NCBI GenBank assembly: GCA_028292405.1
Contig: JAQGMJ010000070.1
Span: forward strand, 62,001-126,000
Origin: Betaproteobacteria bacterium
GTDB taxonomy: Bacteria > Pseudomonadota > Gammaproteobacteria > Burkholderiales > JAEUOS01
Direction: 5' to 3'
Length of the DNA stretch: 64,000 bases
In this document: in pieces, positions 50,656-60,414 of the stretch
Layout: the number at the start of each line of letters is the position of its first letter
Numbering within the stretch: the stretch's first letter is position 1
Position numbers and translations under genes: made by a program
The notes under the pieces: generated by a model
The model's input: the letters and a program-made list of their open reading frames with translations, nothing else
The model's database searches: none
What the model was told of the DNA's origin: nothing

Positions 50656-51231
50656 ATGCCGCGAGCCCTCATACTGACCGAAGCCCCCGCCTCACCCGAG
50701 CCCCTGCGCCTGGGCCTGTTGGCCGGCGGCTACAACGTACTCGACGAAATCACCGAGCCGCAGCGCCTGCTCAAGCGCGCCAGCGCGATCGAGCCCGACA
50801 TCGTGGTGATCGCCACCGACACGCCTTCGCCGGCGCTGTTCGAGGCCCTGCGCGTGCTCTACGACAACGCGCCCTGCGCGGTGGCCGTGTACACCACCGA
50901 CACCTCGGAAGCCAGCATCGAGCAGGCCGCCGCCTGCGGCGTGCAGGCCTGGGAGACCGGCGGCCTTTCGGGCGAGCGTTTGCCGGCGCAACTGGCCGCC
51001 GCGCGCGCCCGCTTCCGGCTCCTGAACGACACCCGCGAGGCGCTGGAAGAAGCCAGCAGCAAGCTCGAAGAGCGCAAGCTGGTGGACCGCGCCAAGGGCA
51101 TCCTGATGCAGTCCAAGCGCATGAGCGAGAATGAAGCCTATTCCGCGCTGCGCAAGCTGGCGATGGAAAAGAAACTCAAGATGGGCGCCATCGCCGAACA
51201 GATCATCAACACCGCGCACCTGCTGGCGTAA
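50656..51231 (+). CDS. nasT: ANTAR-domain antitermination regulator NasT, with degenerate receiver
   Basis: The 191-residue protein has a receiver-like domain (1-120) and a C-terminal ANTAR RNA-binding domain (KLVDRAKGILMQSKRMSENE, then YSALRKLAMEKKLKMGAIAE). It should bind two-hairpin RNA leaders and prevent termination. The receiver lacks the usual paired acidic residues at the start (ALILTEAPA). The normal phospho-Asp position falls on Ala in DIVVIATDTPSP. Control by protein sequestration (NasS) rather than phosphorylation is the known mode. No NasS gene is adjacent. It is probably co-transcribed with narK (79-base gap). Confidence 0.92.
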   Translation: MPRALILTEAPASPEPLRLGLLAGGYNVLDEITEPQRLLKRASAIEPDIVVIATDTPSPALFEALRVLYDNAPCAVAVYTTDTSEASIEQAAACGVQAWETGGLSGERLPAQLAAARARFRLLNDTREALEEASSKLEERKLVDRAKGILMQSKRMSENEAYSALRKLAMEKKLKMGAIAEQIINTAHLLA

Positions 51232-51255: not shown

Positions 51256-52992
51256 TCAATGGCGCAGCAGCGCCAGCACCAGCAGCACCGCCAATACCAG
51301 GCAAAGCGACTTCCAGAAAGCCAGCGGATTGCGCTCCAGCAGGGGCGCGCGCGTACGGCTGAGAAACTCGCTGTTCGGATGCCGCAGGTCGTGGAGAAAT
51401 TCGGAAAGTTCGCCGTAGCGCCGCGCCGGTTCCGGCTGCAGGGCGCGCCGCAGGGCTTCGTCGACCCAGGCAGGAATCTCGCGCTTGTCACCCAATGCGG
51501 AGTCGTAGCGCAGGCGCCGCTGCGCCGCCCGGCTGCGCGCCTTGGCCACTTCGGCGCCGTAGGGCAGCCGGCCGGTAAGCATCTGGTAGGCGATCACGCC
51601 GAGCGAAAACAGGTCGGAGCGCGGCGAGCCGCCCTCGCCGAGAAAATATTCCGGCGCGGTGTACTGGGCGGTGCCGAGAATGTCCTCTTCCGCCCCGGGC
51701 GGCGCGGTCTCGGCCAGGCCGGCGACGCGGGCGGAGGCGAAGTCGATGATCTTCACCGTCCCGGTGGCGTCGATCAGGATGTTCGCCGGCCGCAGGTCCT
51801 GGTGCAGCATTTCCATGCGGTGAAAGGCCAGCAGGCCGCGCGCGATCTGCTCGACGATGCCGCGCACCGTCTCCAGCGCCGGCGCGGGGTTATCGATCAT
51901 CCATTGCGCCAGCGACTGGCCGTCGATGAATTCGCTGGCGACATACAGATAATTGCGCTTGCGCGCCGGGGCGCAGGGCTTGAGCACGTGCGCGTTGTCG
52001 ATGCGCCGCGCCACCCATTCCTCGAGCATGAAGCGCTCGATATAGGCCGGGTCGCCGCGCAGGTCGATGGAGGGAATCTTCAGCGCGACTTTCCCGCCGC
52101 TGGCGTTGTCGACGGCGAGGTACACATGGCTACGGCTGCTGCCATGCAACTCCTTGACGATGCGGTAGCCGTCGAAATCCATCCGCGGCTCGAGCAGCGG
52201 TGGTAATTGCAGGCCGGCCAGTTGCTGCTGGATTTCGTTGGCGCCCCGTTCCGGCAGCGCGTCGACGCGGATGATCTGCACCGTGAGATTGTCCGGGCTG
52301 CCGCACCGCGCCGCCTCGGCGACGATCTCCCGCGCGGCGGTGTCGAGGTCCACGCCGGGGACGGCGAGGGCGGCGGCGATGGCGCCGGCGACGAATTCTG
52401 CCTCGACGTACTCATGCACCCCGTCGGTGGCGAGCACGAAGACGTCACCGACTTCGACCTGCAGCGCCTGGTAGTCGATCTCCACCCGCGGCCCCACACC
52501 CAGCGCGCGGCCGAGATGGCTTTGCCCGGGCGCCACCCAGATGCGGTGGTCGGTAGTGAGCTGTTCCAGGCCATGGCTGCTGACACGAAAGATGCGCGCG
52601 TCGCCGACGTGGAACAGGTGCGCCGTGGCGGACTTGAGCACCAGCGCGCTGAAGGTGCAGACGTAGCCGCGGTCCTTGTCGTAGCGCCCCTGGCTTTGCT
52701 GGGTCTGGGCGTGCAGCCAGGAATTGACGGCGGCCAGCACGCGCTCGGCCGAGGTCTTGACCGTCCAGGCCTCGGAGGTGCAGTAATAGTCTTCGAGAAA
52801 GCCGCCGACCGCCGCCTGGCTGGCGACATCGCTGACGGCGCTGCTGCCGATACCGTCGGCCAGGGCGATGGCGATGCCCTTGCTGTCGAGCAGCGGCTGC
52901 GCGGGAACGCACAGGCCGTGGAAGTCCTGGTTGACCTCCTTGCGGCCACGGTCGGAATGCTGCCCCGCCGATATTTTCAGTTCACTGGACAT
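51256..52992 (-). CDS. fused PP2C phosphatase / Ser-Thr kinase, membrane-anchored
   Basis: Residues 1-245 are a PP2C phosphatase (GRKEVNQDFHG, ALADGIGSS, HVGDARIFRV, LATDGVHEY, CGSPDNLTVQ). Residues 273-520 are an eukaryote-like kinase (VALKIPS, HQDLRPANILI, IIDFASARVAG). The kinase has HQD instead of HRD and DFA instead of DFG, so activity may be altered. A single membrane helix (about 553-575) ends the chain, leaving both domains in the cytoplasm. Similar fusions lie in nitrate-assimilation clusters of pseudomonads, so a role in nitrate control is plausible. Confidence 0.92.
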   Translation of the reverse strand: MSSELKISAGQHSDRGRKEVNQDFHGLCVPAQPLLDSKGIAIALADGIGSSAVSDVASQAAVGGFLEDYYCTSEAWTVKTSAERVLAAVNSWLHAQTQQSQGRYDKDRGYVCTFSALVLKSATAHLFHVGDARIFRVSSHGLEQLTTDHRIWVAPGQSHLGRALGVGPRVEIDYQALQVEVGDVFVLATDGVHEYVEAEFVAGAIAAALAVPGVDLDTAAREIVAEAARCGSPDNLTVQIIRVDALPERGANEIQQQLAGLQLPPLLEPRMDFDGYRIVKELHGSSRSHVYLAVDNASGGKVALKIPSIDLRGDPAYIERFMLEEWVARRIDNAHVLKPCAPARKRNYLYVASEFIDGQSLAQWMIDNPAPALETVRGIVEQIARGLLAFHRMEMLHQDLRPANILIDATGTVKIIDFASARVAGLAETAPPGAEEDILGTAQYTAPEYFLGEGGSPRSDLFSLGVIAYQMLTGRLPYGAEVAKARSRAAQRRLRYDSALGDKREIPAWVDEALRRALQPEPARRYGELSEFLHDLRHPNSEFLSRTRAPLLERNPLAFWKSLCLVLAVLLVLALLRH

Positions 52993-53008
52993 CGCTCGCG
53001 CCGGATCG

Positions 53009-53034
53009 GCCCGCCCCCGGCATTGGGGGCGGGC
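53009..53034 (-). terminator. GC-rich hairpin after the formate/nitrite channel gene
   Basis: GCCCGCCCCC / GGGGGCGGGC with a 6-base loop forms a perfect 10-bp stem between the channel gene and the PP2C-kinase gene. No T run follows, so it may only attenuate transcription or protect the RNA end. Confidence 0.45.
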
Positions 53035-53052
53035 GCCCTATTCTGACGCCAA

Positions 53053-53865
53053 TCAGACCAGCTTGCGTTTCGGCGCGGTCTTGATGTGGGTGGCGTAGAG
53101 GGTCAGGCCGGTGAAGGAGAGGCCGCCGACCAGGTTGCCCAGCACGGTGGGGACTTCGTTCCAGATGAAGTAGTCCATCCACGAAAAGGCGCCGCCCAGA
53201 AAGAGCGCCGAGGGGAACAGGAACATGTTGACCACCGAGTGCTCGAAGGCCATGCCGAAGAACAGCATGATCGGCATCCACATGGCGATCACCTTGCCGC
53301 TGACGGAGGTGGAGATCATCGCGCCGACCACGCCGGTGGAAACCATCCAGTTGCACAGGATGCCGCGGATGAACAGGGTGAGCATGCCGGCGGCGCCGAA
53401 CTTTTCGTAGCCCAGGGTGCGCGCCACGCCGATGCCCGCGATCACCTTGCCGACCTTGTCGGGCTCCTGCGAAAAACCGTAGGTGAAGACAATGGACATC
53501 AGGATCGCCACTGTCAGCGCCCCGAGAAAGTTGCCGAGGAACACGAGGCCCCAGTTTTTCAGCACCCCGCCGATGGTCACGCCGGGGCGCTTGTCGATCA
53601 GCGCCAGCGGGGTGAGCACGAAGACGCCGGTGAGCAGGTCGAAGCCGAGCAGGTAGAGCATGCAAAAGCCCACCGGGAACAGGATGGCGCCGATGATCGG
53701 AAAGCCGGTCTGCACCGTGACGGTCACGGCGAACACGGCGGACAGCGCGAGGATGGCGCCGGCCATGTAGGCACGGATCAGCGTGTCCCGGGTTGCCATG
53801 AATATTTTGGATTCGCCCGCATCCACCATCTTGGTGACGAATTCCGCTGGTGCCAGATAAGACAT
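53053..53865 (-). CDS. formate/nitrite transporter family channel (NirC/FocA)
   Basis: A 270-residue inner-membrane protein with six helices, forming pentameric anion channels. Family motifs are GFCMLYLLGFDLLTGVF (near residue 81), NWGLVFLGNFLGAL (near 109) and HSVVNMFLFPSALFLGG (near 208), containing the channel His. Nitrite is the likely substrate from context. The unusual 5' leader carries a sigma-54-like promoter, an ANTAR-like hairpin and a terminator-like hairpin. Confidence 0.93.
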   Translation of the reverse strand: MSYLAPAEFVTKMVDAGESKIFMATRDTLIRAYMAGAILALSAVFAVTVTVQTGFPIIGAILFPVGFCMLYLLGFDLLTGVFVLTPLALIDKRPGVTIGGVLKNWGLVFLGNFLGALTVAILMSIVFTYGFSQEPDKVGKVIAGIGVARTLGYEKFGAAGMLTLFIRGILCNWMVSTGVVGAMISTSVSGKVIAMWMPIMLFFGMAFEHSVVNMFLFPSALFLGGAFSWMDYFIWNEVPTVLGNLVGGLSFTGLTLYATHIKTAPKRKLV

Positions 53866-53893: not shown

Positions 53894-53951
53894 AAACAAA
53901 GCGTCCACCTGCACGCCCCCCGTTAATAGTGAGGACCGTGAAGGTGGACGC
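53894..53951 (-). terminator. terminator-like hairpin in the leader of the channel gene (candidate attenuator)
   Basis: On the minus strand GCGTCCACCT (53951-53942) pairs perfectly with AGGTGGACGC (53910-53901). Inside, CACG pairs with CGTG and C runs pair with G runs. TTTGTTT follows at once. The hairpin ends about 30 bases before the channel start codon, and no other minus-strand gene precedes it, so it can only act on the channel transcript. Confidence 0.75.
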
Positions 53952-53961
53952 CGTTATCCCT

Positions 53962-54018
53962 GAACTTCGGTTTGCACTGCCAGTTCTTTCCCGATGCTAA
54001 TGGCCGCCGTTGGCCATT
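53962..54018 (-). promoter_or_regulatory. ANTAR-type RNA leader of the channel gene
   Basis: Read on the minus strand, hairpin 1 (54018-53999) has a perfect 7-bp stem AATGGCC / GGCCATT with hexaloop AACGGC (A at 1, G at 4). Hairpin 2 (53986-53962) has stem GAACT / AGTTC, two more GC pairs, and a loop region containing AGTGCA, less regular than the motif. The terminator-like hairpin follows 10 bases later. Confidence 0.65.
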
Positions 54019-54032
54019 CCTGTGCCGACAAA

Positions 54033-54395: not shown

Positions 54396-54411
54396 TGGCA
54401 TAAGGGTTGCT
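54396..54411 (+). promoter_or_regulatory. sigma-54 promoter of the nrtABD operon
   Basis: TGGCATAAGGGTTGCT fits the consensus TGGCAYRNNNNTTGCW at every defined position. The start of transcription is predicted near 54422. Sigma-54 control with NtrC would tie nitrate uptake to nitrogen limitation. Confidence 0.85.
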
Positions 54412-54425
54412 TTTTAGAGCAACGG

Positions 54426-54466
54426 GACCTCTCAACGAAGAGCGGTTCTTGAACAAGGGTGTTTTC
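54426..54466 (+). promoter_or_regulatory. two-hairpin ANTAR target in the nrtA leader
   Basis: Hairpin 1 (54426-54447) pairs GACC-x-CTC with GAG-x-GGTT around hexaloop AACGAA. Hairpin 2 (54451-54466) pairs GAAC with GTTT around hexaloop AAGGGT. Both loops have A at position 1 and G at position 4, and both follow the predicted transcription start directly. A further hairpin (54470-54484, GCACA / TGTGC) and a T-rich stretch near 54500 come before the ATG at 54534. That terminator is weak. Confidence 0.75.
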
Positions 54467-54533
54467 CCGCACAAAAGCTGTGCGCGGCCAGCGCCTTTGT
54501 TGCTTCCACTCAACTCTGGAAACGCCAGCGCCC

Positions 54534-57597: not shown

Positions 57598-57642
57598 TGG
57601 TGGACTGAAACCCGCCCCGCCGACACCGAGACCACCTTGCGT

Positions 57643-58128
57643 ATGAACGCGCTGACCCCCGATGACCTGCAGGTGATCACCGCGGCGGCGCAAAGCTACT
57701 TCAGCCGCCTGACGCGCAAGGCCGCCACCGTCTCGGCCGCCTATCCCGGCGAGCGCAGCGCCCTGCCGGAGTTCGACTACACCGGCCTGATCCAGGTCTC
57801 CGGCTCGCACCGCGGCTGCGTCTATTTCACCGCGCCGAAACTGATGATGCGCTACCTGCTGCTGTCGGCCGGCGAAACCCTGCAGGGCGACGACATCTAC
57901 ATGGGCGCCGCCGGCGAGATCGCCAACACCATCGCCGGCAACGCGCGCAAGCACTTCGGCGAAAAAATGGAAATCTCGGTGCCGGCCACGCTCAAGGGCG
58001 CCGCGCTGGAGAGCTTGAGCAAGAGCGGCGTGCTGCAGATATTGCGGCAGCAGCCGATGGTAATCAGCATCCAGTGGCAGGCTCTCGCCGCCGCGCTTGT
58101 GGTGGATTTGGAGAGCGCGGCGGCCTGA
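57643..58128 (+). CDS. CheX-like phosphatase-domain protein
   Basis: The 161-residue protein (ATG 57643; TTG 57637 is an alternative) fits the CheC/CheX fold with the motif GAAGEIANTIAGNARK near residue 90, where the family places the Glu and Asn that attack phospho-aspartate. It could dephosphorylate a receiver domain, and the convergent neighbour is a receiver-kinase fusion. It follows nrtD by 45 bases, likely in the same transcript. Confidence 0.8.
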   Translation: MNALTPDDLQVITAAAQSYFSRLTRKAATVSAAYPGERSALPEFDYTGLIQVSGSHRGCVYFTAPKLMMRYLLLSAGETLQGDDIYMGAAGEIANTIAGNARKHFGEKMEISVPATLKGAALESLSKSGVLQILRQQPMVISIQWQALAAALVVDLESAAA

Positions 58129-58279: not shown

Positions 58280-59485
<1,206 letters not shown>

Positions 59486-59625
59486 GTAAGAGCAGCGCGG
59501 GAAGGCGCGAATCAGGGACAATACAAGCCGTATTGTAGTCGCTGCGCCGCGCCGCGCCGGGCGTCCTACAAGCAGCCAAAAACCGGACCGCCGGCCGCAC
59601 ATCGGCGCGCCCCTTTTTCCAGCCC

Positions 59626-60414
59626 ATGCACGCCAATTCCCGTCCTGTCGAAAGTCCCCAGCAGGGACCGCACCAGCAACTGGTCTCCCTGGTATTGCGC
59701 CATGCGCGCAGTCCCTTCCGCAAACCGCCCGCGCCCTACAGCACGGCCGCCTTCGGGCGCCTGCTGGCGGCCTGGGACGGCCGCGCCCCGCTGCTGCTCG
59801 ACGCCGGCTGCGGCACCGGCGCCAGCACCCGCGCGCTGGCGCGCCTGCACCCGGAGTGCCTGGCCGTCGGCGTGGACCAGTCCGAGGCTCGCCTGGCGCA
59901 GGGCGAGCAGGCGGCGCGCGGGCAGGCCGCGCCGCCCAACGTGCTGCTGCTGCGCGCCGACGTGGTCGACATTTGGGGCCTGCTGGCCGCGCGCGGCATG
60001 CGCCTGGCGCGCCATTACCTGCTCTACCCCAACCCCTGGCCAAAGCCGGCGCAGGTGATGCGCCGCTGGCCGGCGCATCCGGTGTTCCCGCTGCTGCCGG
60101 CCCTGGGCGGCATTCTGGAATGCCGCAGCAACTGGAGCGTCTACGTGGAAGAGTTCAGCGCCGCCCTCGGCCTGCTGCGCGGCGCCGCGCCGGCCTGCGA
60201 GGCCTTTGTGCCTGAGGAACCGCTGACGCCCTTCGAGCGCAAATACCGCGACTCCGGCCACGCGCTGTGGCGCGCGGCGGCGGATCTGGATGCAAGCCGT
60301 CCGGCGACGGCCGCAGCCAGCCCGGCCGGCTTCGGTCCAACGGCCGGCGCGACGGGTTTCAGCTCCGCAGCGGGCCCCGCAGTCAATCCCACGCTCAGCC
60401 CAGCAGCGCCTTGA
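59626..60414 (+). CDS. TrmB-like SAM-dependent methyltransferase
   Basis: A 262-residue protein with SAM motif LLLDAGCGTGASTRALA (near residue 50) and YPNPWPKPAQVMRRWPAHPVF (near 132), which resembles the PDPWPKKRHxKRR signature of tRNA (guanine-46-N7) methyltransferases. The basic end of the signature is changed, so it is perhaps a paralogue with another substrate. The last 35 residues are Ala/Gly-rich. Its 3' end overlaps the convergent next gene by 20 bases. Confidence 0.8.
   Translation: MHANSRPVESPQQGPHQQLVSLVLRHARSPFRKPPAPYSTAAFGRLLAAWDGRAPLLLDAGCGTGASTRALARLHPECLAVGVDQSEARLAQGEQAARGQAAPPNVLLLRADVVDIWGLLAARGMRLARHYLLYPNPWPKPAQVMRRWPAHPVFPLLPALGGILECRSNWSVYVEEFSAALGLLRGAAPACEAFVPEEPLTPFERKYRDSGHALWRAAADLDASRPATAAASPAGFGPTAGATGFSSAAGPAVNPTLSPAAP

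Follow-up and report, generated by a model that had tools for sequence, protein, structure and literature searches.

The window, by which we mean the whole 64,000-nt stretch of DNA analysed, carries on its minus strand a gene for a channel of the FNT (formate/nitrite transporter) family (53053–53865; PF01226, E = 2.8e-61). The next gene of the presumed operon encodes a fusion of a PP2C phosphatase and a Ser/Thr kinase (51256–52992, minus strand). The two genes (51256–53865) are found as a conserved pair in the majority of some 100 proteobacterial relatives; among 80 genomes whose channels are 77–87% identical, the fusion gene nearly always lies next after the channel gene. In genus and family mates, the channel gene was not found a second time. 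The nitrate uptake genes nrtABC include nrtA, which is divergent from the channel gene. They adjoin a gene on the minus strand for a receiver-domain and Ser/Thr kinase fusion (58280–60043) and a gene for a CheX-like protein on the plus strand (57637–58128), which suggests more phospho-signalling around nitrate uptake.

Directly before the channel gene lies a terminator-like hairpin (53901–53951, minus strand). Its outer stem is formed by GCGTCCACCT (53951–53942) and AGGTGGACGC (53910–53901), with 10 of 10 Watson–Crick pairs. The interior, read inwards from this stem, comprises a mismatch, a 4 bp helix CACG/CGTG, another mismatch and then a 5 bp helix. The T-tract TTTGTTT (53900–53894, minus strand) follows directly on the 3′ side and is interrupted, whereas the relatives carry 7–8 T. 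The ATG of the channel gene (53865–53863) is 28 nt from the T-tract, and the Shine–Dalgarno sequence AAGGAG (53877–53872, minus strand) lies between them, outside the hairpin. The initial annotation, which described a perfect 10 bp stem with inner pairs, the sequence TTTGTTT and a distance of about 30 bases to the ATG, was accurate in position and content on the minus strand. The predicted RNA fold has an energy of −41.2 kcal/mol and z = −7.4, and none of the shuffled sequences was equally stable. Perfect stems of at least 10 bp with loops of 3–35 nt occur at about 10 distinct places in this GC-rich window. Hence, the stem by itself is weak evidence, and the company of elements in which it stands matters. 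The exact stem is present in a single copy in the 5.5-Mb genome. A simple terminator scan did not pick up the site because it allowed loops of 3–8 nt only, and an Rfam search of the window gave no matches at the gathering score.

Upstream of the hairpin is a sigma54-type promoter sequence, TGGCGCGGTATGTGCT (54048–54033, minus strand), which agrees with the consensus at 10 of 12 letters. The two strands of the window together hold only four sites with such a score, one of them here and one before nrtA. The position of this site, which ends 14 nt ahead of the first hexaloop hairpin described below, suggests a transcription start near 54022 and agrees with the earlier proposal that the region is the only possible leader of the channel gene. 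A search for NtrC-type sites returned 26, fewer than the chance expectation of 45, and none is claimed.

Between the promoter and the terminator, the leader contains two hexaloop hairpins with the features of ANTAR targets. The first, P1 (54018–53999, minus strand; AAUGGCC-AACGGC-GGCCAUU), has a 7 bp stem and a 6-nt loop closed by a C:G pair, and is backed by folding and by covariation in relatives. A spacer of 39 nt (53960–53998, minus strand) with neither a hexaloop nor a significant fold separates it from the second, P2 (53959–53946, minus strand; GGAU-AACGGC-GUCC), which is backed by folding and by a covariance model match. Its stem is only 4 bp long and its loop is closed by a U:G pair. 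The two loops are identical (AACGGC) and show the A in first and the G in fourth place (A1, G4) that ANTAR proteins recognise (PMC3369931, PMC7496416). The 3′ strand and the loop end of P2 sit inside the 5′ arm of the terminator (53951–53942), so that P2 and the terminator are mutually exclusive.

Folding of the growing transcript gave the same picture. P1 forms with a pairing probability of 0.97 and remains stable throughout, and P2 is present with a probability of 0.85–0.90 from nt 80 to 110 and is displaced at about nt 118, when the 3′ arm of the terminator emerges. The comparison of antiterminator and terminator folds, which had been proposed as a check, yielded two exclusive states with energies of −58.3 kcal/mol (terminator) and −43.9 kcal/mol (P2). 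Since the terminator is about 14 kcal/mol more stable, P2 would persist only if a protein held it in place. The initial annotation had made read-through dependent on an upstream ANTAR hairpin. The comparative evidence does point to a leader terminator under such control, but P1 alone is not the competitor of the terminator; the second hexaloop, P2, which had been overlooked, is the antiterminator according to the folding model.

Only one place in the window combines P1 and P2, with their A1/G4 hexaloops, and an overlapping terminator with a T-rich tail, and this combination did not arise when the leader was shuffled 20,000 times with its dinucleotides kept. An ANTAR target is expected to have two hairpins with hexanucleotide loops on stems of 3 bp or more, A1 and G4 in both loops, a P2 exclusive with an intrinsic terminator and an ANTAR protein in the same genome. 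The leader has stems of 7 bp (P1) and 4 bp (P2), both loops carry A1 and G4, the exclusion of P2 and the terminator is seen in their overlap and in the growing-RNA folds, and the genome encodes exactly one ANTAR protein.

The gene for this protein, the presumed partner of the leader, lies 2.7 kb away (50656–51231, plus strand). The product is of the NasT type, with a receiver-like domain and an ANTAR domain (PF03861, residues 132–184). Its closest solved chains belong to a response regulator and to a putative antiterminator, and it aligns with NasT proteins encoded beside nrtA. The domain content is that of the NasT of NasS–NasT systems. A search of the genome, which is 93% complete, for the NasS-like nitrate sensor that partners NasT there gave no candidate: PF13379 matched NrtA and one unrelated protein, which is SsuA-like, and nothing else. 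Where the receiver domain usually has its phosphoacceptor, this NasT carries Ala; most relatives have Asp there and some have Gly. With NasS not found and Ala at this position, the activating signal of NasT is uncertain. Nitrate or nitrite would be the natural candidate, given the known NasT systems (PMC3795266, PMC5424462) and the neighbouring nrtABC and narK genes.

A covariance model of P1, spacer and P2 (R1) was built from 10 channel leaders. The leader under study scored 54.4 bits (match 53943–54017), a value that is not independent, as this leader is one of the 10 in the training set. No second long-spacer element was found in the genome with R1, the next best match scoring 15.7 bits (E = 5). 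R1 matches were present in 36 of 399 genomes of the order, and ANTAR proteins, searched in the same 399 genomes, in 188 (47%). An ANTAR protein was found in 35 of the 36 genomes with an R1 match and in 153 of the 363 without one (Fisher p = 1.2e-11). Among the 35 matches that could be placed, 29 lie at most 2 kb from an ANTAR gene, 28 of these downstream on the same strand. The model was built without knowledge of the positions of ANTAR genes, and the link between the motif and the ANTAR protein is therefore not circular. A sigma54 site stands ahead of 27 of 29 examined matches (the window's included), usually about 30 nt before P1, and 26 of the 29 precede nrtA, narK, nirB or the channel gene. 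A strict overlapping terminator accompanies 14 of 30 held-out matches vs. 4 of 438 control positions. Both stems, P1 and P2, covary among the relatives, with the caveat that matches to a structure model lean towards structure.

The leaders of the channel family were also surveyed. The same layout, with P2 sharing bases with a U7–8 terminator, is found in many relatives, among them L011, L060, L064 and L070. In one alternative placement (L047), the element precedes nirB and heads a cluster of nirB, a downstream Rieske-type ORF, the channel gene and the kinase gene; nirB of the window genome has no ANTAR-type leader. Among 100 channel leaders, 37 have an AANG hexaloop hairpin within their last 300 nt and 43 have a sigma54 site; the corresponding frequencies in control chunks are 3.7% and 2.6%, and the enrichment is about tenfold for each. 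Most leaders of the family have no detectable pair of P1 and P2. When P2 with a terminator was counted again for loops that differ in their first and fourth letters, C/G and C/C gave similar totals, and this count alone was dropped as evidence.

The divergent nrtA leader, on the plus strand, shows a related arrangement. It comprises a sigma54-type promoter, TGGCATAAGGGTTGCT (54396–54411), a P1 hexaloop hairpin with the loop AACGAA (54427–54446) and, after a short spacer, a probable P2 (GAAC-AAGGGU-GUUU, 54451–54464), which overlaps a hairpin (54452–54501) with a 12 bp stem and a poor T-tail. The long-spacer covariance model does not catch this leader (54396–54501). It is probably a second ANTAR target, so that both divergent leaders are probably ANTAR targets, with the stronger terminator at the channel. 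The view in the initial annotation that the channel hairpin exceeds anything in the nrtA leader holds for energy (−33.8 vs. −27.7 kcal/mol) and for the U-tail (U at 6 of its 7 positions, against a poor tail in nrtA), but not for the stem, which is longer in nrtA.

Three known systems are comparable. As in the nas leader of Paracoccus denitrificans (NasS–NasT; PMC3795266, PMC5424462), a NasT-type ANTAR protein and two leader hairpins are combined with nitrate/nitrite-assimilation genes downstream, there including the nitrite transporter gene nasH. In P. denitrificans, however, there is an adjacent nasS and the gene behind the leader is nasA (PMC3795266, PMC5424462), whereas here the leader stands directly before the channel gene with the kinase-phosphatase gene behind it, and NasS was not found. 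The NasR/nasF leader of Klebsiella oxytoca (PMC7496416, PMC3369931) shares the two-hairpin motif, the C:G closing pair, the A1/G4 hexaloops and a terminator ahead of nitrate-assimilation genes; NasR is a one-component NIT-ANTAR sensor, whereas the ANTAR protein of the window is of the receiver type without a nitrate domain. The EutV antiterminator of Enterococcus faecalis (PMC3369931, PMC8934654) likewise involves dual A1/G4 hexaloops and a P2 that overlaps the terminator stem. The main text of Ramesh et al. 2012 (PMC3369931) refers to proteobacterial ANTAR-element predictions before “nitrate and nitrite transporters” and nitrite reductase; the window locus, and the layout of sigma54 site, P1, P2 and terminator before channel and kinase genes, are not described in that main text.

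Taken together, these features make it probable, at roughly 85%, that the operon of the channel and the Ser/Thr kinase-phosphatase is controlled by a transcription-antitermination leader of the NasT (ANTAR) type, with the hairpin as its intrinsic terminator. The mechanism is already known, and the leader is a new example, a variation within ANTAR antitermination. The sigma54 promoter would start the RNA just ahead of P1, and P1 and then P2 would fold as the transcript emerges. With no active ANTAR protein, the 3′ arm of the terminator would capture the bases of P2, the more stable fold would win, and transcription would halt before the ribosome-binding site of the channel gene. Free NasT, which in known systems appears when nitrate or nitrite is sensed, would bind the P1 and P2 hexaloops and keep P2 closed; the terminator would then be blocked and the channel and kinase-phosphatase operon transcribed. 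The 39-nt spacer, the interrupted U-tract, the 4 bp stem of P2, the failure to find NasS, the Ala at the phosphoacceptor position and the fact that most leaders of the channel family show no pair of P1 and P2 are points against this assignment.

The U-tract, the P2 stem, the missing NasS and the long spacer with its lack of a third hexaloop would also suit a plain attenuator that constitutively limits channel expression, with hexaloops that are relics or bind nothing. Both loops nevertheless read exactly AACGGC and their stems are intact, the overlap of P2 with the terminator recurs in the relatives, and the only ANTAR gene of the genome has been kept at a distance of 2.7 kb; a plain attenuator is thus considered unlikely. 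Still less probable is a post-transcriptional function, in which the hairpin protects the 5′ end of the mRNA after processing or modulates translation. Its great stability and closeness to the start codon would fit such a role, but the ribosome-binding site lies outside it, the T-tract follows the stem only on the strand of the gene, and relatives carry U7–8 tails. That the hairpin is a chance or unrelated inverted repeat, such as a DNA operator or a repeat element, is very improbable: the other perfect stems in the GC-rich window speak for it, but the z of −7.4, the uniqueness of the composite element in the window, the fact that the genome has this stem only once and the layout conserved across relatives all argue against it.

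The spacing of the hexaloops deserves separate consideration. The linkers of the E. faecalis eut elements measure 5–12 nt, with a tight spacing limit (PMC3369931, PMC8934654), and an addition of 20 nt between the hairpins abolishes antitermination by EutV (PMC8934654). The window leader, with its 39 nt, falls outside this subtype; the general definition of the ANTAR motif allows a variable linker (PMC3369931). Among order-mates, the cores of the P1 and P2 hexaloops are 18–51 nt apart. In P. denitrificans, nasA is preceded by the hairpins HI, at 137 bp, and HII, at 91 bp, which puts 46 nt between their positions (PMC5424462), and long spacing may thus be a trait of NasT. A spacer hairpin bridging P1 and P2 is absent in the window (z about 0), while spacer folds in the relatives are significant (mean z of −2.1 vs. 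−0.2 in control segments).

A third A1/G4 hexaloop is present between P1 and P2 in half of 28 held-out elements (L119, L122, L124, L128, L132, L134, L137, L138 and others), mostly 3–5 nt before P2. In these leaders, the classic short-spaced pair would be the middle hairpin and P2, with P1 extra. The third hexaloop is absent from the window leader and from most channel leaders. A tentative reading, which we regard as possible but hold with less than even confidence, is that NasT-type leaders form a long-spacer subclass (18–51 nt), about half of it with a third A1/G4 hexaloop, that the channel leaders have lost this hexaloop and use two distant ones, and that in this genome NasT without NasS gates the channel and the kinase-phosphatase.

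The long spacer and the third hexaloop bear on how ANTAR proteins work: on two neighbouring hairpins that they have to bridge, or also on hairpins that are far apart or follow one after another. The leader offers a precise, testable switch, made of two 6-base loops and one terminator, for what would be nitrate-dependent control of an FNT channel, and the switch would also cover the conserved Ser/Thr kinase-phosphatase gene behind it.
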